Source of the DNA: Plumapathes pennacea
Lineage: Eukaryota; Cnidaria; Anthozoa; Antipatharia; Myriopathidae
Direction: 5' to 3'
Length of the DNA: 64,000 nt
Assembly: GCA_964036295.1 (NCBI GenBank)
Contig: OZ038468.1
Coordinates: 9,305,683-9,369,682 of the forward strand
Shown: positions 10,182 to 63,655 of the stretch, in pieces
Layout of the letters: each line of letters opens with the position of its first letter
Numbering within the stretch: the first letter of the stretch is position 1
Translations under genes and position numbers: made by a program
The notes under the pieces: model-generated
Databases searched by the model: none
What the model saw: the letters and a program-made list of their open reading frames with translations, nothing else
Told to the model about the DNA's origin: nothing

Positions 10182-10283
10182 GCAGGGTACCGCTGGCTTT
10201 GTACAGGCAAGCGTTCATAGCAACGTTGCTTTTTGATTGCTTGTACGAGTCGGCTCTTTCTCCCCTTTCTTAGCATCATTCGG
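10182..10283 (-). other. 28S rRNA-derived boundary segment (Z/A)
   Basis: On the plus strand it reads as 28S rRNA sense sequence (AAGCGTTCATAGC, ACGTTGCTTTTTGAT, GTCGGCTCTT) with the shared deviation GTACGAGTCGGC of all copies in this window. Relative to unit A, which is leftward, it is antisense 28S at the 3-prime side, the same polarity as at 34.5, 46.2, 54.8 and 63.6 kb. Confidence 0.8.
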
Positions 10284-10411
10284 TATATAATATATTAACG
10301 TTTGTATTTTGGTTTGATTGAACAGTTTTAGGGGTGGATGATTCACGTTTGTTTTACACTGTGCTTTGTCAAATGTGAACCGACCTGTTATTGGACAGTA
10401 TTATTAAGAAA

Positions 10412-10805
10412 TAGCGGGACCTCCGTGATCGGATTTTCCTTTTTTTTTCTCTCAGTTTCTTTTTTCTTTTTAAGTCCATTTCGAGCATTTTGAATGCAGT
10501 TTAGAGTGTCTCAGTACAAACTTCTCTGTAGGGCATGTTAGCAGTGGACCGTACCACTCGACGAATTGCCAATCGATCGACATAAAAATCTCCGCGTTTT
10601 TCGAAGATGGGGAAGCATCAGCACAACATCCGGTCACTTAACAACACAAATTCTCTTTTAAAAATCATTTTCGATTTCTAAAATACCTGTGGTCGGCATG
10701 CGAGGTATTTATACTTAGTTTCACTCGATGTGGCGGCCATCTTGGATTTCTTTCTGATGAGGAGGCCTGGGAAAGAGCGTTACAGACAGACCGAAGTGCC
10801 TTAGC
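10412..10805 (-). mobile_element. Non-autonomous Helentron-like insertion N3, copy in unit A
   Basis: On the minus strand the segment ends GGAGGTCCCGCTAT at 10,412, matching CACGGGGGTCCCGCTAG at 54,616 in unit B, and the probable start is near TCGGTCTGTCTGTAACGC at about 10,800. Because both A and B carry it at the same place, it entered before they were duplicated. The 5-prime border is estimated, since there is no empty site in the window. Confidence 0.4.
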
Positions 10806-10908
10806 GTATTATTATAAAGGTTTCCTTGAAGTGTGTGGTTGTTGTATGTTAAAATAGCCATTGTGTAGGGTAACTGCTTTTTTATTATATTTACTGCTGT
10901 ATTATAAA

Positions 10909-11472
10909 CTAATTATATTTCATTGAGTGAAGGATGGCGCCCCTAAAACTTCTATATAAAGCAAAATTTCCTTTGTCATTAAGATGGACGCCATCCTTTC
11001 TTATGACGGAGATCGATGGATTGTTTAATCCTCTGTGGGTCTAGTATCTGAGATTTGGTTGATGCTTACAGAATTCTTTCATAATGTTGTTGTAAATATC
11101 CACGTTGTGGTTGAAATCTGCTGTTGGCTGTTTGGTCCTGTGTATAATTTGGCACAGGTAAAGTTTGTTTACTTTTTCGTCCAGTAATTTGTAGGCTAAA
11201 TGAATGTTATCAGCAAGTTCTTGTGGTTGATGGCTTGCTAGATCATTGGTTCCTAATTCTAGTATAATTATGTTTGGTGCAAAAGAATTAACTATCGCCA
11301 CATCGTATTTTAACAGTTTTGCGACAGTGCGACCTCCAACTCCACACAGTTTTACGAGTGCATTTTTTTGACCCCATAATCTTGGTGCACCCTTTCGTCA
11401 TTTGTTTCATACAGGTAGTGTAGCTGTCTTCTGACAAAATGGCCCAAGATCAAGATGGAGTTGGCGGTTGCT
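10909..11472 (-). pseudogene. SGNH/GDSL-type hydrolase exon of unit A
   Basis: A splice acceptor (TCTCGTTTCAG) at 11,473 is followed by sequence homologous to the intact SGNH exon of unit B. The block ELGTNDL is present, but frame changes near 11,370 and after 11,041 break the protein, and the LGHSF-type serine block and the DGVHLND block fall in other frames. Family role: SGNH hydrolases cleave ester bonds; in mobile elements their role is unknown. Position after helicase is the same as in B. Confidence 0.65.
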
Positions 11473-11768
11473 CTGAAACGAGAGATATTGTAACGTTCTT
11501 GTAACGTTTCAAATATTATAAATAAGTGGAAAGACTTGTTATGTGAATGGTTGCAAAGTTTCTTTTTAAAACAGTAAATGTAATTTGAAAGGTATTATGT
11601 CAACGGAGTTACGTCTGCTAACCTTATATTTATATAACAGCGAACTTTAGTCGCCCCTGCAAACTATTTTTTTGTTAATAATTAAGGAAACTGAGTGTAC
11701 CTGTTAACAAGAAATATCGAGTGAATTTTGCAATGCCAGATGGACAATCAGCGAAAAAAATATTCGTT

Positions 11769-12280
11769 TCATGTGAGGTTTACGGGTTTGAAATGGGTAA
11801 CCTTCATTCTCGTAAGAAAAACAAGAGACAGTGGCTGTTGTCCACCAAAATATTTTTCTACTACAAGTTTGTTTATTCTAGCTGCCCCTGCTCTCGTTAC
11901 TGTTAGAACTGTAGCAGTGGGATGAGCACTAAGGGTTTGGAGTATGTCTTTGTCCGAAGGTATGCCATTTGAAACCCATGTTTGTTGGATAGAGTCTAGC
12001 AAGGTTTGGTTTGGTATCCATCTTTTCACGTGATCTAGGAATGTTTGTAACTTTCGATCTGTGCATCTGAACTGTTGGACCAAGTTAAAATGTTTCACTG
12101 AGCTCAAAAACTTTGTATCAGTAAGGATCTTTGGTACGGTCACTGTTTGCCCTCTTTGTCTGGTTATGGGATGTTTTTGGTATTCATCTCCAGAGAAAAA
12201 GACAATTGGACGTGACGAAAGTTGTGCAATTGTTGCCAAAATGTGATGAAAAATTTGTCGGTATCATGGAAATTTCATCA
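11769..12280 (-). pseudogene. Helicase of unit A, C-terminal part with internal deletion
   Basis: The frame at 12,239-11,769 begins at the SRPIVFFSGDEYQ motif III region of the PIF1-like helicase and continues through FRCTDRKLQTFLDH and ATVLTVTRAGAARIN, matching unit B residue by residue. After VVEKYFGGQQPL it jumps to LVFLTRMKVTHFKP, so about 130 residues with motifs V-VI (including the ICKAQGQTL block present in B) have been deleted near 11,843. A motif Gln is also changed (YQKHP against YQQQP). Confidence 0.75.
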
Positions 12281-14047
12281 CTAGAAATACGATAATCGCA
12301 GATATCCCCTCGCTCAGTAGTGGGTTTTCGGAAAGCGGGATTCTTGTTTATTTTCCGTTCGGAGATTATTTAAAATTTTTTTTGCAAACCACGGCTGTGT
12401 AGCGACGTCACCAGTCGTCCGCTAAAAAAAATCTTTGTCACGCGGCAGTCTGGTTTAGTTCAGACAACGTGCACAGTCTGCAATTTTCGTAGACACTAGC
12501 TGAACTTCAAAATTTGCTGAGAAAACATTCACACGCAACTACAGAATACACCCGAGGCTTGAAAGCCAAGCAAAGTCGATCTTGGACACTGAAGTTTTTA
12601 TGAATTTCAAGAAAAGCCGCGATTTCTCCAGCCAGTGCTTTATCCTAACCACATACGTGTATATGTTTGTTTTTTTGTGTGTGCCAAATTTAGAACCGTC
12701 AAAGCGAGTCGCTTGTTTACACGCTTTCAAAGTCTCGGAATCGTGTGAATTTTGGAAGGGATTCAATTTTGAACACAACAACTTTTCAAACTGCGTTTGA
12801 CGATTTTAAAATCTTTGACAGAAAAAAGAAATCAAGTCACTAAATAATACAAGGTCCGATTTTATTGAGCGAGCAAACCCGGTCACTAAATAATACAAAG
12901 TCCGATTGTGTTGAGCGAGTATCTTACGGGGGTCCCACTAGTAGACATATTGTTTAATTTGGAAAGCAGTGGCCGGATATTTTCTACTTTAATAGCCTTC
13001 AAAAAGCAAAAGCATTTTAACCCAGTTACATTTTATCGTTGAATACAGTGTGCCAACAAACGCGGCGACAAAACTTCACAGCATGTGTCAGACTGTCAAT
13101 GAAATTATGCAAACATGTCAGGAATCGGATGACACAATCTTGCACGAAGGCACTCTGAAATAGCTTTGAAAACCAGCGAAAAGATCACAGTATAATCCTA
13201 CTTGGCCTTCATCACAGTTCCCGGGGCATCAAACGACAAAATATACGGCAGTTGTTGAAATACCAATGATAACACGACCATCGTTTAACAAAAGTGTATT
13301 TAACGTTAATTGATGTAAAATTTCAAAACTCACCGGTTCCTGAAAGCCATAGCTTTAGCTCTTTTCCAGCAAAGGAAACAAAACCCAAAACACTATTGTT
13401 TACGTCTTCAATGATTTCAAAATACACTGTAATTAACTGTAAATAACTGTATAGAGCAGTCCTCATACAGTACGAAAATTCCACTTTCCATTGTATTGTG
13501 TTGTCATCTTGTCAAACTTGGATTCTGAAAACTGCATTCCTGTTATTGCAAAAGGTGAAATTTGCCACAGTGATTGTTCGATTTCCACCGACTGTATTTT
13601 GCTATTCCTTTCTGAAGAAGTGTCTGCGTTTTAACACAATACTGGCGTCTGGGATTGTGTTCAGGTCGACCAGTTGGGCCTTAAAGAATCCGTTTTACGT
13701 CTAGTAAAGCTTGCCTCCCATGCACTGGCAAAATATCCGGGCAATTTACAGCCGTCCGTCGAACTGCTTGGCCTTGTATCTGCATCTTGTTGTACAAAAT
13801 CACTTCAGTTCGTACTCTACCGCATGTCACCAAGAAAATGGCGGTTTACAGTTAAGCTGCCGATGTAACCTCGCCTGCTGTGGTCGCTCGATGCGGAGGG
13901 CCTTGGGACGAGGTCGTATGCCACACACAAACAATCACACAAACACACGAACATTAGATTTCGAGATGGCGACATGCTTGGAGTCTCCGATAAGGCGATA
14001 ATACTACTGCATTAGCGTCATGAGTATTTCCCTCACTTCGTTCGGGG
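12281..14047 (-). mobile_element. Non-autonomous Helentron/Helitron-like element N2 inside the helicase gene
   Basis: On the minus strand it starts CCCCGAACGAAGTGAGGG at 14,047 and ends ATTATCGTATTTCTAG at 12,281. In unit B the uninterrupted sequence is GTAAT/TGATGAAATTTCC; here the same GTAAT and TGATG flank the insert, so it went in precisely between T and T with no duplication. The ends are shared with N1. The interior (1.77 kb) has no convincing gene and contains a nested end signal of another element at 12,941 and a 50-bp direct repeat at 12,837-12,925. Confidence 0.85.
12837..12941 (+). repeat. Direct repeat and GGGGGTCCCACTAG end signal nested in N2
   Basis: TCACTAAATAATACAARGTCCGAT and TTGAGCGAG occur twice (12,837-12,880 and 12,888-12,920), and the second is followed by TTACGGGGGTCCCACTAG, matching the 3-prime end of N3 in unit B (54,602-54,616). 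This suggests a further non-autonomous Helentron-like end, in plus orientation, within N2. Its 5-prime end was not found. Confidence 0.45.
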
Positions 14048-14668
14048 ATTACAATACAGTCATAATTGGAGAGATGCCAGTTGATCAATGGTACTGCATT
14101 TTCTTCTACTGGGTACAGAAAGCCACTGTGCACAGTGTCGGTGTGAATCTTTTCACCAAAGGTAGCTTTGAATTTGCAGGCCAAAAATGCTGTTGGAGCA
14201 CAGACGAAAACTTTTTGATGTTTCTGCAAAGAATGCGAAATGCATACGTTCATAGCGTGTGTTTTTCCCACAGCCGGGTTTTTCAGTGATTAGCACAAAC
14301 GTTTTCCAATCTATGTTTAACCGGAAATCGGTTTCTTGGTCAGACGGATAGTTTTTGCTGTTGCCGTCATAGTCGCCATCTGCATCAGATTCATTGTCGC
14401 TTTCCGTGTCGCTGTTACTTGTTCTCTTGACATGTTCCAGTGTGCCGTTGTAAAAATGATTTCGTTTTTGGAGAGCTTGTTTGAAATAATCTATGATTAA
14501 CAACTGTGTTCCGGCCAACCTTGACTCTTGTAAAGCGTTGGTCTCGGGTGACTCGAGCTGTTCTCTGGTGAACATCCTTAACTGCCACAATTTGAACAAA
14601 TCTTTGAGACTGCAGACATAGTTGAGAAATGTTTGGATGAAGTAGTCCTTATTTCCTTCTAGTTGCAT
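14048..14668 (-). pseudogene. Helicase of unit A, N-terminal part
   Basis: The region encodes the linker and the start of the PIF1-like helicase: TNALQESRLAGTQLLIIDYF, an acidic stretch (SDTESDNESDADGDYD) and a Walker A motif (KPGCGK) near 14,275, disrupted by an extra base relative to unit B. After it come KVFVCAPTAFLACKFKA and DTVHSGFLYPV, family motif Ia, in a second frame. It is cut at 14,047 by N2. It follows Rep without a gap, so Rep and helicase were probably one long protein. Confidence 0.7.
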
Positions 14669-16803
14669 GAATTCGCATATGGCAGATAAATTGTTCCAAG
14701 TTTGGGTAGTAATGTTGAAACGGAAGCGAAAAATTTAAGATTATCTGGCATCGAGCCTGCATCAGGGTGATAAAGCTGGTCCAGTGATCTGTGTGGCACA
14801 TTCATCAAGCTCTTGGAAAAAAAAATTATTCCTATAAACAGAGAGAAATTTTTGTCCAACTAGAGTGGTTCCAGATTTGTAAGGCTTAGGCTGAGCTTTG
14901 GTGTGGTCAACTTCTCTCAGCCATTTCAGGAAAGTGTAGCCTTCCACTGTTGCCGGACATTGTCTGTATTTAATGGCTGTTTTGTCTTGACCAGCTTTAT
15001 CCCTTCGTGGTACTGTGTAACGTTTTGTTCTACTACAAGACCATGCCGGTTTAACTGCGGACAAAGAAAACCACATTTCGGGCTTGCACGGTTTCAGGCA
15101 GCCCAGATAATGGAAAGCTCCCTGATACACTGAAACATGTTGAGAATACAAGCTGTCGATGTCTATCGAATCTTTCCATTTCGATACACAAGATACGTAA
15201 CGCAGTACCATCGATTTTCCGTTGGTGGTCTGAACATCCATGTGACATTGCAAGGTTGGAAGGATGGTTTTGATGTATGCTCGAAGGTTCCGTTCAAATG
15301 CATCTGCTGGGTGATTACTTTTATGATGTCTTGATCGCCCTCCTTTGCAACGTGTGTTTTTTATTTTGTTCAGATAAACACAGACTCTTGTCTTTAGATT
15401 TCTGTAGCTTATGGGCTAAAAAACCTAACGTTTCGTTGTCTTTCGGAATGTCGGCTTGAATTCGTTGGTATTGAATCTCTTCCACATTACTTAACCAGAC
15501 CAACATATGCAAATGAAGGGTTCCCCTGCTTTGAAACTCGAATCTGTAGAAACAAGTCCGTACGTTTTTCTGTTGGATGATGAGCGTGATTGAAGATGTG
15601 TTTTCTCCATCGCTCTGAATTTGACCCGCAAAATAGCCGCGAACAATTTGTTCAAGGGTGTTAGCGATGTGTATGGTTTCTGGACCAACGAGATTGGTTG
15701 GTCCAAGTCCAGTTTGCGTTCTTATTTCTTCTAACCATGCGGGAAACGGGAAAGACCATTCGTACGGAGTTATTGTTAGAAAGAGAGATGGAAGACCATG
15801 CTGCGCCACTGCGTCCTTCAAAAAGCTATGCTGCCACTGCCAGTATCCGGGAGAGAAAGCCTTGGCATCTAAAGCTCGATGCGGAGAACAATTCTGTGAT
15901 TTGGCAGTTTGGATTGCACCTGTAATTGTTTTGAATAGCCATTGGTCGTACTGGAACTGGAGTAGCTCGAAAATGGTGCAATAGTCCAAAATATTTTTAA
16001 AAACTTTGCACATAAAAGCTACTTTTTCACTTTCATGCGTTTCTCTCCCGTCTAATGAAGATTCGCACCAAGATCTAAATGGATATATCGGAGGCCACAG
16101 CGCACATTCAATTCCTCGCAATTGAAAGATTTTAAAGATGCTCAGACTGATGTCATTAGACAGCATTTCCTGGTGAAGATCAACAAAGAACTTGTAGGAA
16201 GAGTGAGAGCATTTCAATAAACAATCATATGCAACAGAGCATCTTTGTTTCTTAGCTACATCTGTCAATTCTGCTATTTTCTGAGCGACAGATTTTTCCG
16301 ATGGTCTTAGTTTAAAGGCCCCGTCCTTTACCCTGTAACCATGTTGCATACGGCAATAGACGCCGCAGTAAACATCAAAAGGTTGTAAATAAAAATATCT
16401 TGAATGGACAGATTGAAAAGGGCAAGAGGGCAGGAATTACGTATCGCTCTCTTTGGCATGTACAAAGTGTTCGTTTTGGCCTCGGTGCATCCAGAAAGTT
16501 AAAGGGCATAATTTCTCTCTTTAACAGGTTGCAGTTAGTGCAGTATGACCAAGATGCGTAACGTATCCAGAACAACAACCTTTCAACAGTTTTTCATGGA
16601 AAATTGCTTTGTCGGTTGCGGTGAATGACAGTAGCTAGAAAACTCGCCTTTTCTCTTTCTATGCGATGCTCATATGCTGCTCTGTCATTTACATAGTTCT
16701 CCAACATATCTTGGAGGTTTGGTCTTTTAATAACTAACTCGGTCGGACGGTTAGACCAAAAAGTAGCAGCATCGTTTTCTGTAAACCGACGAGTATGTGG
16801 CAT
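14659..16803 (-). pseudogene. HUH/Y2 Rep protein of unit A
   Basis: Start is at 16,803 (MPHTRRFTENDAATFW), matching the Rep of unit B. In order it has a Cys cluster (SWSYCTNCNLL ... CTCQRERY), the GIECALWPPIYPF block, KAFSPGYWQWQH, the HUH motif LHLHMLVWL and the tyrosine motif RYVSCVSKW. In the tyrosine motif the second Tyr seen in B (RYVSSYVSKW) is missing here (RYVSC-VSKW), which would disable a Y2 nuclease. Small indels break the frame near 16,585, 16,360 and 15,320. Rep nicks and joins single-stranded DNA in rolling-circle transposition. Confidence 0.85.
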
Positions 16804-17820
16804 TGTTAAAGGTGTAGATATTTTTTTAGAAAGAGACTGTTGGAAGCCTGTAGTTCTGGTAATAAGCTATAAAGAAACCTAACGAGATAAGAAAGAAAAC
16901 AGAAAACTAATTAACAATAACAACAGACATTTCTTTGTTTGACTCACGGATCCATTGTGTCTCTACTCATTCTTCACTTGAATTGCAAAGTCCCTTTATT
17001 CTTGTCAGTACATTAAAAGCCTGAGGAACGGGAAAGTTTAAATAACAGGCACAATGAGAAGCAGATACGCATATAAAAAATCGAATTTAGTGAGCTCGCT
17101 ATGAGAAGATTAGTATTGAACTCGACAGCACGACTGTCACTTTCAAAGGTTGTAACGAGAACAGTGACGAGAAAATCTAACCAACAAGTGTAACACGCGA
17201 TTCCCGGAATCATGTATATGACACTCACGCTATTTTCATTGGAGAGGACACTTATCTTTTCTTAAAGTTGACAATTGTTACGAACACTCCATTGATAGCT
17301 GAAAAAAAGAGAAACAAGTGTCAGTTTAATACAGACATAATAAGAAGAAAAATACGAAGGTGGAAGATCAATTTTAGAAGATTTAAGAAACATAGTTCAT
17401 TAGTGCGATAAACAAACCGAAAGAAATCCTGAATTCTTGGTAAAGAGAAGAAGCGTGAGACATGATTCCGGGAATTGCGCATATGAGAGTTACGATAAAT
17501 TCATTGGAGAGGAGACTTACATTTTTGCACAGAGGGTTATTAGTCACTCGGTCCTTTAACAGATGGAAAAAGAGAAACAAGTGTCAGTTTAATATAGACA
17601 GAATGAGAAGCAAAATACAAAGGTGAAAGACCGATTTTGGTAAGCTGAATTTCAGAAGATTAGCTTTGAACTCAACAGCACAACTGCCACTTTTTAAGGT
17701 TATAATAAGTGAATCATCAATGTCATCTGGTAGCGAGATCTAAGGAACATATTTCATCAGTGCGATGAACGAACGGAAAGAAATTCTGAATTCTCGGTAA
17801 ATAGAACAAGCGTGAGACAT
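16804..17820 (-). promoter_or_regulatory. Unit A leader region with repeated non-coding exon modules
   Basis: The sequence is homologous to 48.6-50.3 kb of unit B but shorter. It holds about three copies of the module with CGATTCCCGGAATCATG-type and CTTGTTTCTCTTTTTC tracts that in B surround small exons with GTAAGT donors. There is no long frame. At 17,820 homology to B stops and the ORF3 fragment G begins. Confidence 0.55.
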
Positions 17821-17821
17821 C

Positions 17822-18332
17822 TAGACATCCCATGTCCTCGATGCGCTGTCCAACTTCGATGCGAAAGAAAACCGAGATGGGTCGGGTAGCAGCGACGATC
17901 TTAAGATCATCATGAAATGGTTCCTATCTGAAAACAGACATGCCACCGAGTATTTTGAAGAAGGCATGCATCTAGGAGAAGCAATGTTCACCATGGGCAT
18001 CCAGTATCTGGTCTTCAAAGCGATAGCAAACCATCCAGAAGATTATGCAAGCAAGCTGGTTGCAGAATTCAGCCAGATGAAGCATTTAATGGGAAAAAGT
18101 GCGGTATTAGAGACCTCTTCACGTACTTTGGCAAACACAGTGTCAAAGCAGAACCACGCCAAGTATCGAAAACGAACCAGTATGACGAGATCTTTTGGCC
18201 GAGCTGATGTCCGTAAATAGCCAGCAGAACGAGGAAGATGACGATGAGGAAAAAGAAGAACAGGAAGAAGTTGTAGAACTTTCGAAAAGAAAAAGGTCCA
18301 AAAAGTCCAGGAAAAGACAACATGAGCTGTAA
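17822..18332 (+). pseudogene. ORF3 fragment (unit G)
   Basis: The fragment encodes the C-terminal two thirds of the ORF3 family: a helical block (MKWFLSENRHATEYFEEGMH, LGEAMFTMGIQYLVFKA, NHPEDYASKL) matching the segment DNPDIDEAMETCCHLGNAMF and NPNEYGKM of the intact ORF3 at 62,123, then an acidic patch and a Lys/Arg-rich tail (KRKRSKKSRKRQHEL). Two frame changes are needed, near 17,905 and 18,190. Its N-terminus is missing because it abuts unit A at 17,820. It runs opposite to A, so it is a piece of another unit. Function unknown, see the ORF3 entry at 62,123. Confidence 0.7.
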
Positions 18333-18410
18333 TAGCTTTTGTACTTCACTTTTTAATTGTTTATATTAAATGTTAAACACGCACACATATCCACAAAAGT
18401 CTTTAATGGT

Positions 18411-18446
18411 ACCGTTTTAATACGGGTTCGAATCCAACAAAAGACG
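18411..18446 (+). other. tRNA-arm-like double hairpin downstream of ORF3 (G)
   Basis: ACCGTTTTAATACGGGTTCG and AATCC form a CCGT/ACGG stem followed by a T-arm-like GGTTCGAATCC. Equivalent pairs follow ORF3 in units F (27,415) and E (63,416). It is not a full tRNA gene. Confidence 0.4.
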
Positions 18447-18559
18447 GATCACACAGCTAACTCGTGATTTGCTTTCCATATTTTCAGATTTTTTCACTAG
18501 TAGTTTTATATTCTATGACGTGTGCAAAATTCACCAAAATTTTCCAAATAAAAAAAAAA

Positions 18560-18990
18560 CACAACGTTAACAAATCATTCTAATTGCATAGTCAATACCT
18601 TGCTTTGAGATAAGAAAGCAACAATGCAAAAGGTTGATGTAAAACCCTAAAAAATTAAAAAAGTGAAACTGCCATTTTGACCAAAAAAGGTGTCAGACTT
18701 TGGCTGTTTTGGCATAGAAATAAATTACTTATTCCTACAGTTTTAAGTTGTTCAACTTCAGTCAATAGTGAATTCGGTCATAAAAAGGATGAAACTTAAC
18801 CAATGATTCTTTTTCCATAGAGTCAATGCCTTGCTCTCAGACATGAAAGCACCAATACAAGAGTTTATCATGTCGATCTCTGGAAAATTGGAAGTTAGAA
18901 AGTGCCATTTTGAGAAAAATTCAGGTGTCAAATTTCTTATTCCTACAGTTTTAAGAGTGAATGTCCTTAAGAATCGATCAAACCGTGGCA
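18560..18990 (-). repeat. Inverted copy of the 385-bp upstream repeat of unit B
   Basis: The minus strand carries the block found twice at 48,016-48,640: GGAATAAGAAATTT, CCAATTTTCCAGAGAT and TCTATGGAAAAAGRACCA. It belongs to the 5-prime region of unit A, separated from it by fragment G. Confidence 0.6.
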
Positions 18991-27411: not shown

Positions 27412-27414
27412 GCC

Positions 27415-46240: not shown

Positions 46241-46242
46241 GC

Positions 46243-47995: not shown

Positions 47996-48015
47996 AACGA
48001 AAATCTGTGTGACTT

Positions 48016-48640: not shown

Positions 48641-48779
48641 AGTTTCCCCTCGTTATAACTTTAAAAAGTTGCAGTCGTGTTGTCGAGTTCAATGTTAATC
48701 TTCCGAAATTCAGCTGACCAAAATCGATTTTTCACCTTCGTATTTTGCTTCTCATTATGTCTATATTAAACTAACACTT

Positions 48780-54092: not shown

Positions 54093-54205
54093 TTTATAAT
54101 ACAGCAGTAAATATAATAAAAACCAGTTACCCTACACAATGGCTCTTTTAACATACAACAACCACACACTTCAAGGAAACCTTTATAATAATACGCTAAG
54201 GAACT

Positions 54206-54616
54206 TCTGTCTGTCTGTAACGCTCTTTCCCAGGCCTCCTGATCAGAAAGAAATCCAAGATGGCCGCCACATCGAGTGAAACAAAGTATAAATACTGGCC
54301 TCGCATGCCAACCACAGTTATTTTAGAAATCGCAAATGATTTTAAAAAGAGAATTTGTGTCGTTAGGTAACTGGATGTTGCAATGATGCTTCCCCATCTT
54401 CGAAAAACGGGGGAGATTTTTATGTCGATCGATCGCCAATTCATCGAGAGGTACAGTCCACTGGTAACACGGTCCACTGGTAACACGCCCCACAGAGACG
54501 TTTGTACTTAGACACTCTAAACCGCACTCAAGATGCTCGAAATGGACTTAAAAAGAAAAAAGAAGCTCAGAGTGAGAAAAAAATCCGATCATTGTATTTC
54601 ACGGGGGTCCCGCTAG
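54206..54616 (+). mobile_element. Non-autonomous Helentron-like insertion N3, copy in unit B
   Basis: The 3-prime end TTTCACGGGGGTCCCGCTAG/T at 54,616 resembles the CTAG ends of N1 and N2, including a preceding ATCATTGTATTT (ATTATCGTATTT in N1). The probable start is near TCTGTCTGTCTGTAACGC at about 54,206. The same insertion is in unit A at 10,412. The 5-prime border is approximate. Confidence 0.4.
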
Positions 54617-54750
54617 TTCTTAATAATACTGTCCAATAACAGGTCAGTTCACATTCGACAAAGCACAGTGTAAAACAAACGTAAATCATCCACCCCTAAA
54701 ACTGTTCAATCAAACCAAAATACAAACGTTAATATCTTATATACTGAATG

Positions 54751-54850
54751 ATGCTAAGAAAGGAGAGAAAGAGCCAACTCGTACAAGCAATCAAAAAGCA
54801 ACGTCCCTATGAACGCTTGCCTGTACAAGGCCAGCGGTACCCTGTAAGAA
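54751..54850 (+). other. 28S rRNA-derived boundary segment (B/E)
   Basis: AAAGAGCCAACTCGTACAAGC, ATCAAAAAGCAACGTCCCTATGAACGCTTG and CCAGCGGTACCCTGTAAG align with antisense 28S rRNA up to CCCTGTGGTAA. It ends unit B and is followed by a G-run opening unit E. Confidence 0.85.
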
Positions 54851-54857
54851 AGAGTTT

Positions 54858-54873
54858 GGGCGGGACAGGTGGG
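54858..54873 (+). other. G-quadruplex-like run, start of unit E
   Basis: GGGCGGGACAGGTGGG, directly after the 28S-like segment; matched by the complement at 10,150-10,168 in the inverted copy. Confidence 0.55.
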
Positions 54874-55499
54874 AGAAACCGTACGGTTGTCCATCCGGGG
54901 TGATTAGAAGAACGTTTCGGCAATCGGAGGTCTACGTTACACCAATGTAAACATACATGCACAAGTCTACATATTGCATGTATATACGTATAAATATAAT
55001 GATAACTTTTATGAAATTTCAGTATCGCCCTAATTTTTGCATATTTGAACAGAGCTCATTAGTGCGGATGTGCATGGGCAATATAAGCAGCGGGACGCGT
55101 ATGGAACAAGAGCTACGAGTGGTCAAAGTTCATTTTTCGCATACAAAGTCTCTTAATTTCTTTTGGTTTTTCGTCGATATGTGCATTTGGGTACGATTTT
55201 GCACTCCTCCAGGGGACGGATGTGTACCGTCTGTGTACCAAATATCAGGGAGATCGAGAGAAAGGCTGATTTTCTAGAATTTTTTAAACGAATTTTTCGT
55301 CCATACATTTCTTCTTAATTCTGGACCGAATTTTTTTTTTGGCATATATCGATAGGAGTCATGGCGACGCAGTTGGGTGTGTAATATCTAAGAGGCTGTG
55401 TACATGAGAACGAAGTTATAGCATGTTAAATGTGTCGGTTTCCCATACAAGCCTTCTTAATTTGTGGCGGGAAAATCTTGATTTCGTAGATTGACGGTA

Positions 55500-56780
55500 A
55501 CTCCCTTGCGTTTTGAAAAATCTGTTGCAAATTTTGCGCGATCAGTAATGGACATGTGTGACTCACATGCCAAATATGAACATCACACCTTTCAAACTCA
55601 CAGAGTTATAGTTGTGCAAATCTGACTTTCCAGTGAAAGTACAACTTGCATATAGTCGAAGTATGCTGATGTGACTTCATTAATTTCAGTGACAAAGAGA
55701 ATGAACTTCTACCAATGATTATTTTTCCCATAGAGTAAATAGGTTGCCCTGAGACCTAATAGCACGAAAATAAGAGCTTGTGATCTAAACACCCGTAGAA
55801 TTGAAATTTGCAATGTCCCTTTTTCAGAAAAAGTTAGGTGTGAAATACACCCTGTGTGGGCATATAATTAAATTTATTATTTCTGCACCTTATTGTTGTT
55901 CATATAAAGTTATACATCATTGTAAAGGTTATGACATGTGTGACTCACATACCAAATATGAACATCACATCTTTCAAATTCACAAAGGTATAGTTGTGCA
56001 AAGTTTGTTTTCCAAGTAAAAAGTACATCTCCATGTAGTCAAAGTATGCTTATGTGCTTCATTTATTTCAGTGACGAAGAGAGTGAACTTCTAGTAATGA
56101 TTATTTTTCACATAGAGTAAATAGGTTGCCCTAAGATATAGTAGCATAAAAACAAGAGCTTGTTATCTAAAGGCCTCGAGAATTGAAATTTCACATGTGC
56201 CATTTTCAGAAAAAAATTGGTGTGAAATTCACCCTGTGTTGCCATACAATTAAATTTATTATTTCTACACCTTATTGTTTTTCATATAAAATTATACATC
56301 TTTGTAAAGGGTATAATACGTGTGACTCACATACCAAATATGAACATCATACGTTTGAAACTCACACAGTTATTGTTGTGCAAATTTGGTTTGCCAAGTA
56401 AAATGTCAATCCTGCATGTAGTCAAACTATGGTTATCTGGCTTCATTGATTTCAGTGACAATGAGAATGAACTTCTACCAGTGATTATCTTTCCCATAGA
56501 GTAAACAGGTTGCCCTGAGACATGGTAGCCCAAAAATAAGATCTTGTTATCTAAACGGCTGGAGAATTCAAACTGAAAAAGTGCCTTTTTGACAAAAAAT
56601 GAGGTATTTTATACAACCTGGGTTGGCATATAAGTAAATTGATTATTTCTACAGTATAATGCTGATCATGACAAGTTATGCATCATTGTAAAGTCCATAA
56701 TATGCCTGACTTACATGCCAAATATGCAAAGTAAAAATGTTAAATTCACAGAGTTAGACTGGCGCAAATTTGATTCTTCG
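55500..56780 (+). repeat. Satellite-like tandem repeat of unit E, period about 380 bp
   Basis: Three to four copies; CCAAATATG landmarks at about 55,570, 55,950, 56,330 and 56,706, with TTTCAGTGACAAAGAGAATG, CATAGAGTAAATAGGTTGCC and TTGTTCATATAAARTTATAC blocks. Homologous to the unit D repeat; absent from the inverted copy Z. Confidence 0.85.
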
Positions 56781-57169
56781 AACTGGCTGGGGGCCTGGGA
56801 ACCAGTACATTCAAAGGTCTATAATTCATAGGCTATACATCCAATTCGACAATTTCTTGTGCAGAAGGACAGCTCCCTGAACTATCTTTCTGAAGAAATG
56901 AACAGGCATTTCAAACATTATTTCTATACTTGCTGATATTTTTTTTAATTAAAATTAGTATTTTTTCAATATTCAAAAATTCACTGCACATGCGCATTGG
57001 AACAGTTGATGTCGTCGTGTGGAACACAGGTAGAACACTTATCTCTGCATATTGACGCTGTTTTATTGCAGAAGAATTGTTTATGAACATGGACGATGAC
57101 CACAAATGTCCAATTGACATGACTGCGGATAATCGACGATATTTATTTGTGTTATTTTCTGCGTTACAG

Positions 57170-57197
57170 ACTCAGACAAGAAACGAAGAAATTTGAG
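57170..57197 (+). other. Unit E leader exon 1 (28 nt)
   Basis: Acceptor TTTTCTGCGTTACAG, 28-nt exon ending ATTTGAG, donor GTAAGC. Identical in size to the Z exon at 9,595-9,622 and nearly identical in sequence. No start codon. Confidence 0.65.
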
Positions 57198-57927
57198 GTA
57201 AGCATGATGCGTCATATGGTTCCTTTGCATTGATAGACATATATTGCAGGATGATTGCTCGTATCATCATGAAGACATAGATCTACAGTAACATTTTTTC
57301 AATGTTGGAATGATCTTTCCGCTCTAAGAAGCTTGATTATGATCTGCGTGATACCATTACGTCATAGTCTAAGTGCGTGATAAGCTTTCTTTTGATGTTT
57401 CATTGAAAATAGCACTGCACATATATGCATTGGAGTGTGTTGAATACTGCAGAAATTGTTTTTGGCAAAAAGTGCCCATTTAGATCAGATTTCGTTCATT
57501 TTTGTCTGGTCACGTGACCTATTTTTGATGATTTTTGCGGTATTTTTATATATTTTTTAATAATTATTTCTCATGTTCTACGTGTCAACGCACATCGTCT
57601 TCTGTAATACGGTAGTCTGTACGTCATCAGAAATTATCTTTCGTGCTGCCAAAGATGTATTCGTGTTGTAGAAAATCTCGTATGCTGCTCAGAAAGATGT
57701 ACACAAAGTGGGCATGTTGACCTTATTTGCTTGCTGATATGAGCTGTTTTTGTCATTTTTTCGTATTTCTACTTTTTGCGAAATTTTCAATCTTCTTTAT
57801 GCTGTTCTCCAGATGATCTTCTGAAATGTGGTGCAGTCTAGTATAGCAGAAATCACTTTTCAGATCATTAGTTACTGTCATTGATATACGCTCTGTTCTA
57901 AAAGATGTTCTTTGTTTCGTCTTGTAG
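57198..57927 (+). promoter_or_regulatory. Unit E promoter/intron with CRE-like site and E-box palindrome
   Basis: Between the leader exons lie TTACGTCATAG (57,357-57,366) and the perfect palindrome GGTCACGTGACC (57,508-57,519), followed by an AT-rich stretch. Both motifs recur in the same order in Z and, in part, in C and D. CACGTG is bound by bHLH-ZIP proteins and TGACGTMA by CREB/ATF proteins in animals; their use here is inference. Confidence 0.55.
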
Positions 57928-57966
57928 ACTATCAAAGCCATTTTGACAAAGACAGAACAAGTGGAC
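57928..57966 (+). other. Unit E leader exon 2 (39 nt)
   Basis: Acceptor TTTCGTCTTGTAG, 39-nt exon, donor GTGAGT. Parallel to the 40-nt second leader exon of D. The next acceptor is TTGCGTCTTTACAG before 58,364, which opens the Rep exon. Confidence 0.55.
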
Positions 57967-58400
57967 GTGAGTATGAATTCATTTTCTACATATTCAACAT
58001 TAGCGCAGAATATCTGCAAAGAACAAAAGTGATACATTTTCAACACATTGTGCACAAAAACGCACATTTCAAAGCAAAAGAAGACGAAAAACAACACCAA
58101 CAGCAACAGGATTATCTAGAACATGCTAAGCTGTATATCATCAACATGTTTAAATTTCATTCATCAGTGATAAACTTTTCGACAAAAGTTGTAAAGTAGC
58201 ATAACAAAACCCGAGAGGTCAAATGAACAGGGTCGACAAGAACACAAAGGCAGAAATTCAAAAGAAATATATACATTCAGCGGGAACAACAGAACAACTA
58301 TGAACGCAGTTTGCACAAGATCTGTAGAACACAAATGCAACAATATTTCATTGCGTCTTTACAGCATTTTAGAAGAAAACTGATGTGCAGACATACTACA

Positions 58401-60110
58401 ATGTCCAACCGATGGACGGATACTCTGTCCCTGAGTTTCTGGAACAATAGAACAATAAACACCGTCATACGTGATGATCAATCTGAGAGACGTATTCTGC
58501 AAATGCATGCAACGCAGGCAGACCGTGCAGAAAGAGAAGAACGCGCTGAAGAACGATTTGTTGAAGATCATGCTTCACAATTAGCGAACAATACTTCCCC
58601 GCCCGTCGTTGGTCTGCAAACAGCAGAGAATCTACAATTCTGGATTGCACACATGTCTTGGTCGTATTGCAAAGATTGCAATCTGCTCCAGTCCGAAAAA
58701 CTGCTTCCTGGATATGCTGCAAGACGCTCGCGTAAGACCACAACAGCATGCAGCTGCAAGACAGGCAGGTACATCATCCCCCAATTTTCTCAGATACCGA
58801 ATGTCCTCCAGAATCTCTCAATGGACGAAGTGCGAGCTTTGCGTCCCTTCACAATCCACACAGGTGCCTACGAAAGGTTGCAACATGGTTACCAGAAAAA
58901 AACTGACATCCTCAGAATCAAATGGTCGCAGACAGACGTCGACAGTCAAATTGAGAATCTGCCAGACACCTCATCGAGGCAACGTTGCCGGAACGCATAT
59001 CAGTATCTGATGAGTTCTGAACAAAGTTCATACTCTGCCTTCGTAGAACAGCGTCAACAAGCACTAGAAGATGGTTCCTTCTTCAATCTTTACAATAACC
59101 AGCAGAGTGCAGGCATTGAATGTGCTTTATGGCCCCAGTTCTACCCGTTTCGCGATTGGTGCGAAACGATCACAGATGGTCGACAATCTCGTCTTAGCAC
59201 GAAAGTTGCATTCTTATGCAAAGTTCTCTCCTCGATCATCGATTATGGACTGCAGTACAAGCTTCTTCAATTCCATTATGACTTGTGGCTCTTTCGGACC
59301 GTGTCAGGCGCCATTTGAACAGCACGTCGACTGCACTGCTCGCCAGCACAGTCACTTGAAAACAAGACCTTTTCAACCGGCTATTGGCGCTGGGAACACC
59401 GCTGCTTGGTAGATGCTGTTCTACAGTTTGGGTTCCCACATGTTTTCGTGACGATTTCACGCTACGAATGGACATTCCCGGTTCCTGCATGGTTGCAAAA
59501 GATTCGAACGTTGACCGGTCGTGGCCCAACACAATTAGCAGCTTTTGAGACCATCCACATAACGCATATCCTGGAACAAGTCGTCCGCGGGTACCTGTGT
59601 GGCTCAAACAGCAACAAGTGGACTGCCCATGTGTTCAGCAACAAACACAAACCACGCTCTCCAAACGTAGAAACCTATTTCTACAGATTCGAGTTTCAAC
59701 AACGTGGAACAGCACATGTCCACCTTCTCGTGTGGCTGAAAGAACTATCGCAAACTCAGTACAATCTCATCAGAGCAGATATACCATGGAGCAATAGAAC
59801 CATGGCTTCACTGGCTGCCAAGCTACAGAAATCTGACAAATCCTGTCTCCCTGTCAACGACACACCAACAGAAGTCATCACAGTACAGTCACAGCGAACA
59901 CTGCAGATCCATCACCCACGTGACGCTTTTGACAAGCATATCAGAGCCTACATTTCAAGCCTGTTACCAGCTCTGAAGTGCACAATGGACGTGCAAACAA
60001 CAGACGGAAAGGGCATGCTTCTGAGATACGTCATATCCTACGTTACAAAATGGCAGGATGCCTACAGCAATGATTCGCTTTATTCCAGAAATGAGGCTAA
60101 GCTTGTCATC
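58401..60110 (+). pseudogene. HUH/Y2 Rep protein of unit E, one in-frame stop
   Basis: I choose the ATG at 58,401 (MSNRWTDTLSLSFWNNRT) because it aligns with the start in unit B; an upstream ATG at 58,311 lies before the acceptor at 58,363. Domains: Cys cluster (SWSYCKDCNLL ... CSCKTGRY), GIECALWPQFYPF, YDLWLFRTVSGAI, then a TGA at 59,316-59,318, after which the same frame continues with TARRLHCSPAQSLENK, FSTGYWRWEHR, the HUH motif AHVHLLVWL near 59,720 and RYVISYVTKWQDAY near 60,025. A frame change near 60,100 ends it. The TGA probably came from CGA. Only this stop separates the copy from a full Rep domain. Confidence 0.88.
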
Positions 60111-61976
60111 TACGAAGATCGCCTGGACACCGAGCAGACGAAAACGATTTACAGTCCCTACTAGCGAAACAGCAGCTCAAAATTTGACGTATCAGAAGTA
60201 CAAGAGAAGAGCTAGGAGTGCTGAACACCTGTCCTTCCTGACATGGCTCAGACAAGTAGACGAGAGCAAAAATCCCCCGAAGGACTACGCCACAGGGACC
60301 ACCCTTGTTGGTATAAAAATGAGATCACCTTTCAACGACGAGTACTTCTTCCAGCATCTAGTGTTGAATGTGCCACACCGTTCCCAAAACACATTCTTCG
60401 ATCGTCATTTTCAACAGCTTCCAACACAGATCAAGTTCTTTGCCTCAGCTCTCGCGCAGAACAATCAGCTATGGAAACATGACAACTTGATCTTTGAACA
60501 CTTCTCGCGTGAAGGCCATCGCGACTACTTCGTAGAAACCGTCGTTGCCCATGTAGCCAGTCTACGAGATCTGCACAGCCTTTGGCAGCGAGAAGTACTC
60601 ACAACAAACATGTTCCAAGTCAACAGTGGACCGACCACGAACAGTTCGCCAGATCCCACACAATCTGCTGTCTTGAGAACAGTTCAACAAATGGCTGATC
60701 AACGGGACACATTTTATCGTACCATTAACTGCGTCGAAGAGCCAACCAGCGATGACGATTTGGACATGGACAATCCACCAGAACATGCACAGCAACAAAC
60801 GCAGACATTCGTGTATCGATCAACTGTTGATTGGAAGAAGTATTTGTTGGTGACTGGAAAACCGGAACAGGGAAATCCCACTTGCTCAAGCTCATCATAG
60901 ACGACTGTATTGAGCAAAACAGAAGAGTGCTTGTTTCTGTTCCTACTGGATTTCTCTCCACGCAGTACAAGGACGAATATGGTGACAGCATCTGGGCTGA
61001 CACTATCCACAGCTCCTTCCACTATCCAGTACTGCCAAATGAACGACCATCCCTGAACTGGGACATCGCAAACTACGATGTTGTCTTGATAGACAAGCTC
61101 TCAATGATCTCGACCAAGATCTTCCAACACGTCAACCAAACAATCAATGAAGTAACAGTTCGTCCTATAGTAATTCTCTGTGGCGACGACTATCAACAAC
61201 AGCCCATTGAAACTGTCGACAATCACATAGTGCAGACGAAAAGCATCATGCAAGAACAGCAGTTCCGAAGGATCGTCCATGAATTCAAGTTGACTATTCA
61301 ACACAGAACCAGAGATGACCACTATCGAGATTTTCTGAACTTCATTCGTTATTGGAAGCCAACTACACGACAGCTGAACGACATCCAAGCAAATAGAATC
61401 CTGTGTCCGAATGACAAACCTACAGACAACCAGATCGTCCTTGCTCTTCGTGAACACCCAACAGCAACTGTCCTCACAGTCAGCAGATCAGCCAGCAACA
61501 GAATCAACCTACTGTTCATAAAGGAACTCTTTTCCGATGACGATCCAATAGGAGAAATTCGAAGCGATTGCGCGTTAGGAACAATCCCCCTTTATCGAGG
61601 ACTACGAGTCATGATCACTCAGAACCGCAACAAACAAAATCGCGTGGTCAACGGACAACAAGCGGTGGTCCACATGCTGCATAACAAAACTGTCTTCCTG
61701 AAACTACCAACGAACAACATCGTGCCCATCTACCCTGTCACATCGCCGAATGCACAAGGAGAAGTACGAACTGTGTATCCATTAATGCCATCTTACAGCC
61801 TCAGCATTTGTAAAGCCCAAGGCCAAACACTGTCCAGCTGTATCATATGGTTCGATGTCCTCACTGTTCCTCCTGGATCTGCATACGTAGCACTCTCGCG
61901 TGTTAGAAGACTCAACGATCTGTATCTCCTCATACCAATGTTGCCAGCTCATTTCACACCAGTATCAACCGAATGA
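60111..61976 (+). pseudogene. PIF1-like helicase of unit E
   Basis: The frame to 60,900 holds the Rep-helicase linker (SRRKRFTVPTSETAA, GTTLVGIKMRSPFNDEYFF) and reaches KYLLVTGKP; a frame change near 60,865 inside Walker A passes to the frame ending at 61,976, with GTGKSHLLKL, VLVSVPTGFLSTQYKD, DTIHSSFHYPV, Walker B as VVLIDKLSMIS, VILCGDDYQQQP, VMITQNRNKQNRVVNG, LSICKAQGQTLSS and GSAYVALSRVRRL. In Walker B the usual Asp-Glu is Asp-Lys (AAG at 61,095), which would block ATP hydrolysis. Confidence 0.88.
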
Positions 61977-62122
61977 ACATTGTAGTCATCTGTCAACAAA
62001 GTATACTGTAAGGAGAATAATATTGCTCTAAATATATAAAACTGTACACTTCATCAATCAGCAAACCCAGAAAACAACAGTACTAATCGTCAACGTACTC
62101 TTTCTTCTAATAGACAAACGAG

Positions 62123-62941
62123 ATGAGCAACTACGCTGCTTACTCGCCCAAGAAAAACCCTCAAGGTGTCAATTGGACAGTGCAAGTGGCCAAAAATTTT
62201 CTCACGCCTTATGGCCCAGCAGCTCAACCTCCCGACACCGACGCAGTATTTAGAAACCTAAAACCTTTCAACTGCGAGTGGCTTCTTCGCCCGAAGTTTG
62301 CCATGTCAGAATTTGCAGCCATGATGATCAGCAACCTAGGAATGCTGAACAGTCACTCAAGCAATGTGGGACAAGTAGCGCCAATTCAGCAACTGATCAA
62401 CGACCTCAAGCCTCTTACTGGCACTCTGGACAACTTGCATAAAGATTCTACACAACCCGCAACCAAACATGACGTCATGAAGTTCATGAAATTCATGATC
62501 GCTGACAACCCAGACATAGATGAGGCAATGGAAACTTGCTGCCATCTGGGCAATGCAATGTTCAGCACTGCCATCAACTATATTATAACCCGCACACTAC
62601 TTCGCAATCCCAACGAATATGGAAAGATGGTGAGGGCAGCCGACCAGTCTGACACGGAATTCCAGAAGCAGCAAAATATGAAAACCATGCGAGATTTCCT
62701 CGTCAACAGCATCGTTACCAATCAAAAGCCCAAACAGGACATTTCCAGTTCACGGAAACGCATGCTCCAAGAGCTCATGAGTGACGACGATGACACAAGC
62801 AACAACACCAGCAACGAAGCTCCCACACCACGCACATCCAAACAAAGAAACAACTCCAAGAAACCACTCAAAACCAAAGAGAAGCATCGAAAGAAGTCAA
62901 AAGTGTCACAAAGCGACACAAGCCAGCCCAGTGCCTCATAA
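62123..62941 (+). CDS. ORF3, conserved third protein of the element family, intact
   Basis: The ATG at 62,123 lies 9 nt after a splice acceptor (CTTTCTTCTAATAG), so the gene is probably the last exon of a spliced transcript. The 272-residue protein has an N-terminal block with KNFLTPYG (residues about 24-31) and FNCEWLLRP (about 49-57), a helical middle (LINDLKPLTG, DEAMETCCHLGNAMF, NPNEYGKM), then LQELMSDDDD and a Lys/Ser/Thr-rich tail (KKPLKTKEKHRKKSKVSQ). Homologues or fragments with the same landmarks exist in C, F, G and as a tail in D, always after the helicase. I know no named domain that fits. Likely nuclear and nucleic acid-associated from the tail; a structural or accessory replication protein is possible. 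Confidence 0.8.
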   Translation: MSNYAAYSPKKNPQGVNWTVQVAKNFLTPYGPAAQPPDTDAVFRNLKPFNCEWLLRPKFAMSEFAAMMISNLGMLNSHSSNVGQVAPIQQLINDLKPLTGTLDNLHKDSTQPATKHDVMKFMKFMIADNPDIDEAMETCCHLGNAMFSTAINYIITRTLLRNPNEYGKMVRAADQSDTEFQKQQNMKTMRDFLVNSIVTNQKPKQDISSSRKRMLQELMSDDDDTSNNTSNEAPTPRTSKQRNNSKKPLKTKEKHRKKSKVSQSDTSQPSAS

Positions 62942-63551
62942 GCTGTATGAAATCTTATGATATTTAGTCAAGATTGCAACACCTGCTTATGCTACAAACT
63001 GTACATAATTGGTTGAAAGTTCTAGAAGTGTTAAAAGCAATAACCCAGGATGTTTCCTATTTATATAGCTTATGTGCGTTAAATTCACCTGTTTAAATTG
63101 AAGAAGACTACGTATTTTTAGGCTTTCCTAGTTGACGTTTTGTCTGAAGCTCTTTGGACTCAAAGAAACATATTTGCATATGAAGCTGCAAACCCAAAAT
63201 CAAGTATTAACAACTCAAATTGAACAATGAACCAAAACATTGCATGTGAAATTAATCTTTAAACAGTACTTACTTCGTTCCCAGTTGACGTTATACTAAT
63301 CTCATCCGTTTTGTTCATCTGAAATAGGCAACCGTGTCAAATAAAAGCGTTGAATTTACAAGTTCATTTCTACTGAATTGCTAACAAAACAGGCACACAC
63401 CACACGTACGACCTCAATGCTTATGCAAGAATGCGTGTTGGTTCAATTGCAACACTCGACCATGGAACACAAACAGGCCCCTAGCACAAAATGAACCACA
63501 CAGTCCATAAGCTCTTGAGAAACACCACAAAAAAAAGGGCCCAAGTTATAC
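62942..63551 (+). other. 3-prime region of unit E
   Basis: AT-rich sequence with AAATAAAAGCG near 63,340 as a possible polyadenylation signal and, in its distal part, the double-hairpin region. No gene is supported. Confidence 0.4.
63416..63455 (+). other. tRNA-arm-like hairpin downstream of ORF3 (E)
   Basis: GTTGG-TTCAATT-GCAAC is a degenerate copy of the T-arm-like hairpin of unit F (GTTGG-TTCGACT-CCAAC), preceded by ATGCAAGAATGCGT. It lies about 100 bp before the 28S-like segment. Confidence 0.4.
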
Positions 63552-63655
63552 GAATTCTGCTAAGCAATGAGAAAAAGAGCCGACTCGTACCAGCGATTCA
63601 AAAAGCAACGTCGCTATGTAAGCTTGGCTGCCACAAGCCAGTTATCCCTGTGGTA
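63552..63655 (+). other. 28S rRNA-derived boundary segment (end of E)
   Basis: The best preserved copy: GAATTCTGCT, AAGAGCCGAC, TTCAAAAAGCAACGTCGCT and GGCTGCCACAAGCCAGTTAT then CCCTGTGGTA follow the antisense 28S rRNA almost base for base, except the shared deviation CTCGTACCAGCG in place of ATCGAAGG. Confidence 0.92.

Follow-up and report, generated by a model that had tools for sequence, protein, structure and literature searches.

What are the short 28S ribosomal RNA (rRNA)-like segments that recur at the borders of Helitron-like units in a 64,000-nucleotide stretch of the Plumapathes pennacea genome (the window, G000:C7:9305683-9369682, from a eukaryotic assembly of 290 Mb in 24 contigs)? 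A sequence-only reading had placed such segments at 10.2, 27.6, 34.5, 46.2, 54.8, and 63.6 kb of the window and had offered two alternatives, either that elements with an HUH/Y2 Rep target 28S ribosomal DNA (rDNA) or that they carry a 28S-derived terminal segment. The segments sit where that reading put them, and our results support both alternatives: the first through precise insertion at one 28S position at many loci together with empty sites, and the second through a 28S-like segment, here called the mimic, that lies inside the 3' end of insertions flanked by 28S. The lineage is almost certainly both 28S-specific and Helitron-like, and we hold with the same high confidence that the 28S-derived mimic is inherited. 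The overall picture that we consider likely is one of decayed Helitron-like copies at one 28S position, with an inherited mimic and probably a single Rep specificity.

The insertion site reads GTTACCACAGGGAT^AACTGGCTTGTGGC in 28S sense, where the caret marks the junction; on the element's strand the insertion point is GCCAGTT^ATCCCTG, equivalent to CCACAGGGAT^AACTGG in 28S sense. Uninterrupted 28S across this position, i.e., an empty site, was found at three places on contig C7 (L002, L003, and L004). L003, which matched the Rfam large subunit rRNA (LSU) model with 930 bits over 1 kb, served as the host 28S reference for alignments. A query of 285 bases from the 28S-sense left (5') side of the site gave 16 genome matches, eight of which end at the site against element 3' ends (L031, which is the window itself, and L033 to L039), with variant junctions in L039, which reads CATGGAT, and L038, which reads CTACAGGGAT. 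Among the other eight, seven continue through the site (three on C7 and four on C8 and C10, the latter four being rRNA pseudogene copies, with L045 and L046 called from coordinates alone), and one on C2 stops short. The query from the right side (201 bases) had 40 matches listed genome-wide, 23 on C8 and C10 and 17 on C7. Seven of these 17 lie at the site after element 5' ends (L047, L048, L052 to L055, and element B), and the remaining 10 comprise three uninterrupted copies, two solo tails, four element mimics, and one match of unclear type (L057).

At the mirror (5') junction, GCCAGTT^ATT, host 28S touches the ATT directly at seven places, with no tail in between, and the full rule in element orientation is GCCAGTT^ATT...element...^ATCCCTG. 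Two elements are bounded by 28S on both sides: A (L077 and L078; 11.45 kb, with 264 and 242 bp of 28S matched) and B (L079 and L080, C7:6016.9-6029.4 kb; 12.5 kb, with 220 and 62 bp matched, other sequence breaking the 28S gene beyond the 62 bp). The orientation of element ends relative to 28S was identical at all clean junctions examined. No duplication longer than AT was seen; this AT is common to the element start and the target and may belong to either, so that a 2-bp duplication is possible. Several loci are near-duplicates (L035/L037, L047/L048/L055, and L052/L053; L052 is also a near-duplicate of A and shares its 5' end), and the distinct ends therefore number about seven for the 3' junction, two of which are solo tails, and about four for the 5' junction. 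Independent insertions at a single 28S base, alongside empty sites, are the signature of a 28S-site-specific mobile element. We take the site, in the GGGAT^AAC stretch, to lie downstream of the R2 and R1 sites and to be the GGGATAAC of large rRNA, between positions 2449 and 2450 (E. coli numbering) in the peptidyl-transferase centre, a location that would be a likely reason for a stable target. The omega intron and I-SceI presumably target this GGGATAAC stretch in mitochondrial rRNA.

At two further loci, L038 (C7:6043731-6043811) and L039 (C7:6096887-6096961), 28S is broken at the site solely by an element 3' tail of less than 100 nucleotides (nt). Both are 90 to 91% identical to 28S up to about the cut, with the tail following, and they look like solo ends from recombination between host 28S and an element mimic.

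Within the window, the elements form an array whose parts are as follows (open reading frame, ORF).

63717-64000, minus strand: host 28S rRNA gene, the 3'-side flank of the array; 97% identical to uninterrupted host 28S over 284 bp (Rfam RF02543, 269 bits)
54903-63716, plus strand: unit 4, 8814 bp, delimited by comparing junctions with 28S-flanked copies and annotated by Pfam and tblastn; Rep ~58404-60092 (one TGA), helicase ~59868-61964, ORF2 62123-62941
63551-63655, plus strand: unit 4 mimic; 86% to host -89..0, running on past the site to +12
63668-63716, plus strand: unit 4 3' tail, opening with the G-run GGGTGGGGTGGGTTGGG, 49 nt before the terminus
46299-54902, plus strand: unit 3, 8604 bp; Rep 50322-52193, helicase ~51759-53178, GDSL esterase-like ORF 53487-54092
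54746-54834, plus strand: unit 3 mimic; host -88..-2, 78%
34678-46298, ends on the plus strand: unit 2, 11621 bp; Rep 41516-39504 and helicase ~40.1-37.96 kb on the minus strand
46136-46223, plus strand: unit 2 mimic; host -88..-6, 75%
27723-34677, plus strand: unit 1, 6955 bp; Rep ~30735-32263, helicase ~31961-33821
34511-34603, plus strand: unit 1 mimic; host -89..-2, 69%
25226-27722, plus strand: 3' half of a fifth unit, 94 to 95% to element B, ending CATGGGTT^; only its right end is placed
27509-27624, plus strand: degenerate mimic of the fifth unit; 66%, score 66 against a shuffle maximum of 40
10128-18935, minus strand: inverted unit related to unit 3; 3' end at 10128, Rep 16803-15071 on the minus strand
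10193-10282, minus strand: mimic of the inverted unit; host -89..-2, 78%

Each of units 1 to 4 begins with ATT immediately at the end of the preceding unit, the tandem junctions reading 3' end^AT(T), and the array closes in host 28S at 63717, where the gene reaches the cut CCACAGGGAT^. Unit 4 starts with ATTAGAAG and ends with GCAGAATG^ATCCCTG, the latter part being 28S. The inverted unit is a relative of the 46-55 kb stretch (94%/86%) and includes part of unit 3's neighbour; its right limit at 18935 is the last match to unit 3 and not a mapped 5' end. The sequence-only reading had described the segments as keeping one polarity relative to the unit, which holds with respect to the element ends and fails with respect to the genes, as Rep and helicase run opposite to the ends in 34678-46298 (unit 2) and likewise in A and in C (L081).

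The 28S likeness of the segments is well above chance. With up to three mismatches, the landmark GAGCCGACTCGTACCAGCG occurs at four places (10.24 kb on the minus strand; 46.16, 54.77, and 63.58 kb on the plus strand) against zero expected, and the landmark CAAAAAGCAACGTCGC occurs at five (10.22 kb minus; 27.60, 34.56, 54.79, and 63.60 kb plus) against a mean of 0.89 in shuffled sequence, none of which reached five. When aligned to host 28S and judged against 100 shuffles per segment, the six window segments scored 60 to 127, compared with shuffle maxima of 39 to 48. Comparison with other copies in the genome showed that 15 of 16 element 3' ends score above all 100 shuffles, with A as the exception at shuffle level, a proportion that overstates the frequency of the mimic since 10 of the 16 ends were found through mimic-type similarity. 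The fair count is five of the six 3' ends found via the 28S flank alone (W63, A, B, D, L035, and L037, of which L035 and L037 are near-copies). The mimic corresponds to the roughly 88 bases of 28S that adjoin the cut on its left, read on the element's strand, and it lies within the 3' end even in insertions flanked by 28S at both ends (B) or at the 3' end (D, L035, and L037). Its left limit falls at -87 to -89 in 10 of 15 ends and further left in five; its right limit falls at 0 to -6 in 13 of 15, the alignment stopping at -22 in B and in the 27.6-kb copy. Alignment past the cut is clear in unit 4 (63.6 kb) and L087 and was not significant in the other seven of nine tested. Recombination with neighbouring 28S may renew the mimic, as the 86% identity through the site in unit 4 and the L038 and L039 tails would suggest.

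All copies had been said to share one deviation from true 28S. What most of them share proved to be a block of changes, including TTCGC to a TAAGA-like sequence and an inserted TCG, each common to six to nine of nine family representatives and absent from the host copy. Across these nine representatives (36 pairs), mean pairwise identity was 0.706 in the mimic, 0.562 and 0.560 in two upstream stretches, 0.606 in the tail, and 0.556 in shuffled sequence. Such a profile is typical of an inherited part under constraint, subject to the reservation that the segments compared had been picked for resembling 28S and are for that reason more alike among themselves. Genomic copies whose ends lack a 28S-like segment had been named as evidence that would refute the idea, and some were seen, namely, A, with no detectable mimic, and two Rep loci described below, with none in the downstream DNA examined. 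Most ends tested carry the segment; thus, the mimic is common and not universal.

A G-run had been placed at the start of the unit that follows each segment. This assignment was not borne out: insertions that end in 28S also have the run, and it therefore belongs to the 3' tail of the same unit. The tail after the mimic measures about 70 nt, contains the G-rich run, and ends at ^AT. The gap between mimic and G-run is usually 19 to 28 nt, and 46 nt in B and its relative, whose alignments end early. In 14 of 15 tails from this genome, the run starts 41 to 55 nt before the 3' terminus (49 to 52 nt in nine of them); in the 34.6-kb unit the pattern starts 75 nt from the terminus. A four-run G pattern was present in 14 of 15 tails, compared with 121 of 2558 background windows (4.7%). 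At the other end, elements start with ATT or AT, and TAACTTTT or a near variant lies 100 to 127 nt inside the 5' end in 11 of 12 own-genome starts tested, L083 being without it; the 3' ends vary (e.g., TT, TG, TA, TC, and CC). No 3' hairpin stood above mononucleotide shuffles in nine tails (DNA folding z-scores of -1.4 to 1.9), and quadruplex-aware RNA folding predicted a quadruplex in two of the nine. Terminal inverted repeats were likewise not found, as none exceeded the 95th percentile of shuffles in ungapped comparisons of the 200-nt ends of six elements.

The encoded proteins are those of a Helitron-like element. The HUH/Y2 Rep assignment made by the sequence-only reading is right, given that the HxH pair (H437 and H439) and both tyrosines (Y543 and Y547; numbering of the unit 3 Rep) are invariant in 23-row and 26-row alignments of relatives. 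In a Pfam scan of 20 ORFs, complemented by tblastn for the placement of Rep, helicase, and ORF2, Helitron_like_N (PF14214) was matched by five ORFs with E values of 3.9e-5 to 4.9e-11, the match in B being below the curated cut-off. An SF1/PIF1-like helicase (AAA_30, AAA_19, and PIF1 matches) lies downstream of Rep, and in B the two occupy a single frame of 945 residues. No reverse transcriptase, piggyBac transposase, or endonuclease-domain match was obtained among the scanned ORFs, although an endonuclease could be hidden by unscanned ORFs, introns, or decay. Comparison of Rep with solved structures gave one match, with an E value of 0.39, which we took as chance. A second protein, ORF2, consists of about 200 helical residues and a basic tail, with no Pfam match above cut-off and none of 139 candidates confirmed at an E value of 0.001 in a protein database search. 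Its structural model had a mean predicted local distance difference test score of 57.5, with helices in residues 18-201 and scores below 50 in residues 1-25 and 196-283. ORF2 is present in A, B, C, D, window units 2 and 4, the B-like half unit, L083, and L089, and we would guess that it is a candidate partner for target binding. Placed copies are the following.

Window, 62123-62941, plus strand: ORF2
L082, 2963-3811, minus strand: ORF2
L077, 957-2204, minus strand: ORF2
L081, 6317-7075: ORF2
L083, 4062-4712: ORF2

Among the matches listed, the Rep was confined to one rDNA-bearing region. With the unit 3 Rep as the query, all 80 matches listed fall within C7:4.71-10.54 Mb (71 of 139 candidates were scored, so that counts are at least these). 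As a control, a search with Helitron_like_N (150 of 209 candidates scored) had 150 matches listed over 12 contigs; 17 were on C7, four of them from this lineage. A match to 28S or to the mimic was detected no more than 10 kb away from 19 of 39 Rep clusters, compared with 3.2 expected under uniform placement in the stretch.

Several observations weigh against this account. The independent junctions are fewer than the loci, ten of the tested 3' ends (W10, W27, W34, W46, W54, L005, and L085 to L088) were found by the landmarks or by similarity to the mimic, and the segments in the identity comparison were selected as already noted. A is inserted at the same site with no detectable mimic, so that either A is chimeric or some lineages can do without the mimic. 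Two further Rep loci, L089 and L090, showed neither mimic nor G-run in the downstream DNA examined (about 1 to 7 kb): L089 has helicase and ORF2 with no mimic or G-run within 6 kb, and L090, which gave no match to Rep, helicase, ORF2, or mimic in the stretch examined, may be a truncated copy. The relatives L083 and L084 from other assemblies also came without a mimic or 28S piece. Finally, for 20 of the 39 Rep clusters nothing matching 28S or the mimic was detected within 10 kb; perhaps these copies are truncated, perhaps they landed in older array material, or the specificity may be less than absolute. The same C7 stretch is also rich in other Helitrons, with 13 of the 150 listed matches in about 2% of the genome, and clustering alone would therefore not prove targeting. 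These last two points would fit a lineage with no target specificity that merely piles up in a region containing rDNA, an explanation made very improbable by the fact that every 28S insertion is at the same base and in one orientation, across about seven distinct 3' ends and four distinct 5' ends. Equally hard to sustain, and to our minds the least probable of all, is the idea that the 28S segments are scraps of host gene caught between neighbouring insertions in an rDNA graveyard. The array does adjoin a 28S gene in a stretch with many 28S pieces, yet most families share derived changes (six to nine of nine per changed column) absent from the host copy used, and host 28S runs straight into ATT at genuine 5' junctions. 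We rejected this origin on the strength of B, D, L035, and L037, which are flanked by 28S and hold the segment inside their 3' ends.

The strongest competitor, though still unlikely, accepts site-specific insertion and regards the mimic as a passive relic, captured by an ancestor next to its insertion and hitchhiking ever since with no role. Helitrons can pick up neighbouring DNA when their 3' end is bypassed (PMC4778049), some fish R2 families have an inherited 28S-like piece in the 3' untranslated region (UTR) (PMC5035012), A resides at the site without a mimic, and the identity comparison is biased toward segments that are still 28S-like. A relic sits less easily with a mimic that is 71% identical between families while adjacent DNA is at the shuffled level (56%), with right limits at the cut in 13 of 15 ends and left limits at -87 to -89 in 10 of 15, and with a near-constant distance from G-run to 3' end. 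Moreover, capture by read-through of the 3' end would take the right half of the target (ATCCCTG...), not the left. Alternatively, the mimic, which offers about 88 bp of homology beside the site, could have served integration by homologous recombination between an element circle and host 28S, and the solo tails L038 and L039 do look like recombinants of host 28S and element mimic. This route is very doubtful: A integrated without a mimic, and a crossover within the mimic would put the G-run tail at the element's 5' side and leave the 3' side bare. The clean junctions show the opposite arrangement, which led us to reject this route.

For the preferred reading, a 28S-specific lineage with an inherited mimic, the data demonstrate the gene content, the junctions, the empty sites, the mimic with its likeness across families, and the tandem junctions; beyond these, we infer a mechanism in which Rep would bind these sequences, the mimic would act in 3'-end recognition, and arrays would grow by renewed insertion. 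One DNA-binding specificity of the Rep machinery could recognise the left half-site of 28S in three settings: the empty target, the 5' junction of an inserted element, where the left flank is the same 28S, and the mimic as marker of the 3' end. Each of the three cuts would fall before AT, and the joint of a donor circle would then resemble the target. The mimic does copy the target half that stays on the element's left and not the half beyond its right end. Together with the G-run, it could stand in for the missing 3' hairpin. We lean slightly toward a functional mimic in 3'-end recognition, having lowered our confidence somewhat, and raised that in the passive-relic alternative a little, because of the way in which the compared segments were chosen. 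Since the left half-site would survive each insertion and a typical 3' end would bring another, new copies could enter at the border of an existing unit and give head-to-tail arrays; self-targeted insertion of this kind seems to us moderately more probable than rolling-circle concatemers. The full combination, a 28S-dwelling rolling-circle lineage (probably animal) with an 88-base mimic, one specificity, a target-like circle joint, and arrays via self-targeting, is a tentative proposal to which we give slightly less than an even chance.

Helitrons of the canonical type (Helitron1) end in CTRR at the 3' side. Neither their 5'-TC/CTRR-3' ends nor their insertion between A and T is seen here (site GTT^AT), and their 3' hairpin was not found. 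Nor were the asymmetric terminal inverted repeats of Helitron2 and Helentrons found or insertion into their T-rich/TT sites seen, the clean junctions here being at GCCAGTT^AT of 28S, and the endonuclease that follows the helicase in Helentrons was not matched in the scanned ORFs. Known Helitron-like elements use AT or TT dinucleotides, whereas this lineage uses one fixed 28S position, and the 28S-derived segment and G-run in the 3' end also set it apart. The likenesses lie in the two-tyrosine HUH Rep with an SF1/PIF1-like helicase, as in Helraiser, Helitron2, Helentrons, and FoHeli, and in an AT-containing site, at which no more than the ambiguous AT could be duplicated here, and head-to-tail copies, as in accounts of such elements (PMC5876387, PMC5148889). 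A coding region that runs against the element ends has been reported for FoHeli4/5 and some Helentrons, i.e., Helitron2-like elements (PMC5148889), and Helraiser has been reported to form circles with a direct end-to-end joint and to use a 3' hairpin as terminator (PMC4778049, PMC5876387).

Site specificity for rDNA is the textbook niche of the R-element retrotransposons. R2 and other R elements are alike in strict 28S insertion but use a reverse transcriptase, which was not matched here. The bacterial IS91 and IS200/IS605 (IS608) elements likewise work by HUH chemistry; the cleavage site of IS608 includes the target flank, and its other end contains a related site. Recognition in IS91 and IS200/IS605 is by a few bases and hairpins, in contrast to the 88-base half-site copy here. 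The group I omega intron with I-SceI, which uses the same stretch of large rRNA, is a splicing intron with a homing endonuclease, and its proteins are unrelated. The nearest parallel to the mimic is the 28S-like 3' UTR piece of fish R2 cited above. Pokey of Daphnia, a piggyBac element, is alike as a DNA transposon at one 28S site, and it carries rDNA-derived spacer repeats and makes tandem insertions at its own flank (PMC3849761). It differs in its piggyBac transposase and TTAA duplication, compared with Rep/helicase and the site GCCAGTTATCCC without TTAA here, and in an estimated six of 175 copies in 28S (PMC3849761), compared with 80 of 80 listed Rep matches in one rDNA-bearing region. In 2013 Pokey was called the only known rDNA-specific DNA transposon, with most copies elsewhere (PMC3849761). 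In the portions of the open-licence PMC literature consulted, with preprints and Repbase outside this scope, we found no 28S- or rDNA-specific Helitron described. If the present reading is correct, such a Helitron-like lineage, with its one 28S target, would demonstrate that the Reps of rolling-circle elements are able to gain specificity for long sequences, and Helitron target choice and the recognition of a loosely defined 3' end would become testable. A natural HUH enzyme with a conserved multicopy rDNA target would also be of interest for targeted DNA insertion tools.

Relatives of the Rep occur outside this genome. In viral contigs, a Rep alignment search gave 154 pattern stretches, none of which was confirmed, and a 29-base 28S pattern gave none. 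Among prokaryote genome contigs, two stray contigs from metagenome-assembled genomes (MAGs) carry Rep and helicase, L083 (bacterium isolate Cli_8) and L084 (a Poribacteria MAG), and probably stem from the eukaryotic host of the sample. In L083, a G-run and GGTT^ATT follow about 1.1 kb after the helicase, the run lying 64 nt before the GGTT^ATT that we took as its end. Two Rep relatives in Desmophyllum pertusum (P0018 and P0092; OS493_019947 and OS493_019943) are on one contig of 1,840,441 bases, which suggests that this species has neighbouring Rep copies too. With relatives in a coral, an ascidian, and two MAG contigs, the group may be widespread.

Some minor features deserve mention. At C10:11.320-11.351 Mb (L017 to L030, L044, L045, and L060 to L076) lies a tandem array of ~1.48-kb units, an rRNA-pseudogene satellite, in which an apparent start of 18S is fused to a 28S piece that spans the site. 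A similar copy is found at C8:8789176 (L006). After the helicase, a GDSL esterase/lipase-like ORF is present in unit 3 (53487-54092, plus strand) and in its inverted relative (10912-11498, minus strand), with no tblastn match elsewhere in the window or in A to D. An ORF of 268 residues at 7952-8758 (plus strand), with no Pfam match, lies near the inverted units. A ~1.77-kb repeat, 89% identical between its copies and probably another mobile element, interrupts the inverted window unit (12280-14049) and B (L079:1005-2738). Tandem repeats of ~160, 309, and 382 bp occupy 5' non-coding parts of units at 27979-29408, 46550-47996, and 55554-56726 and are partly alike between units.

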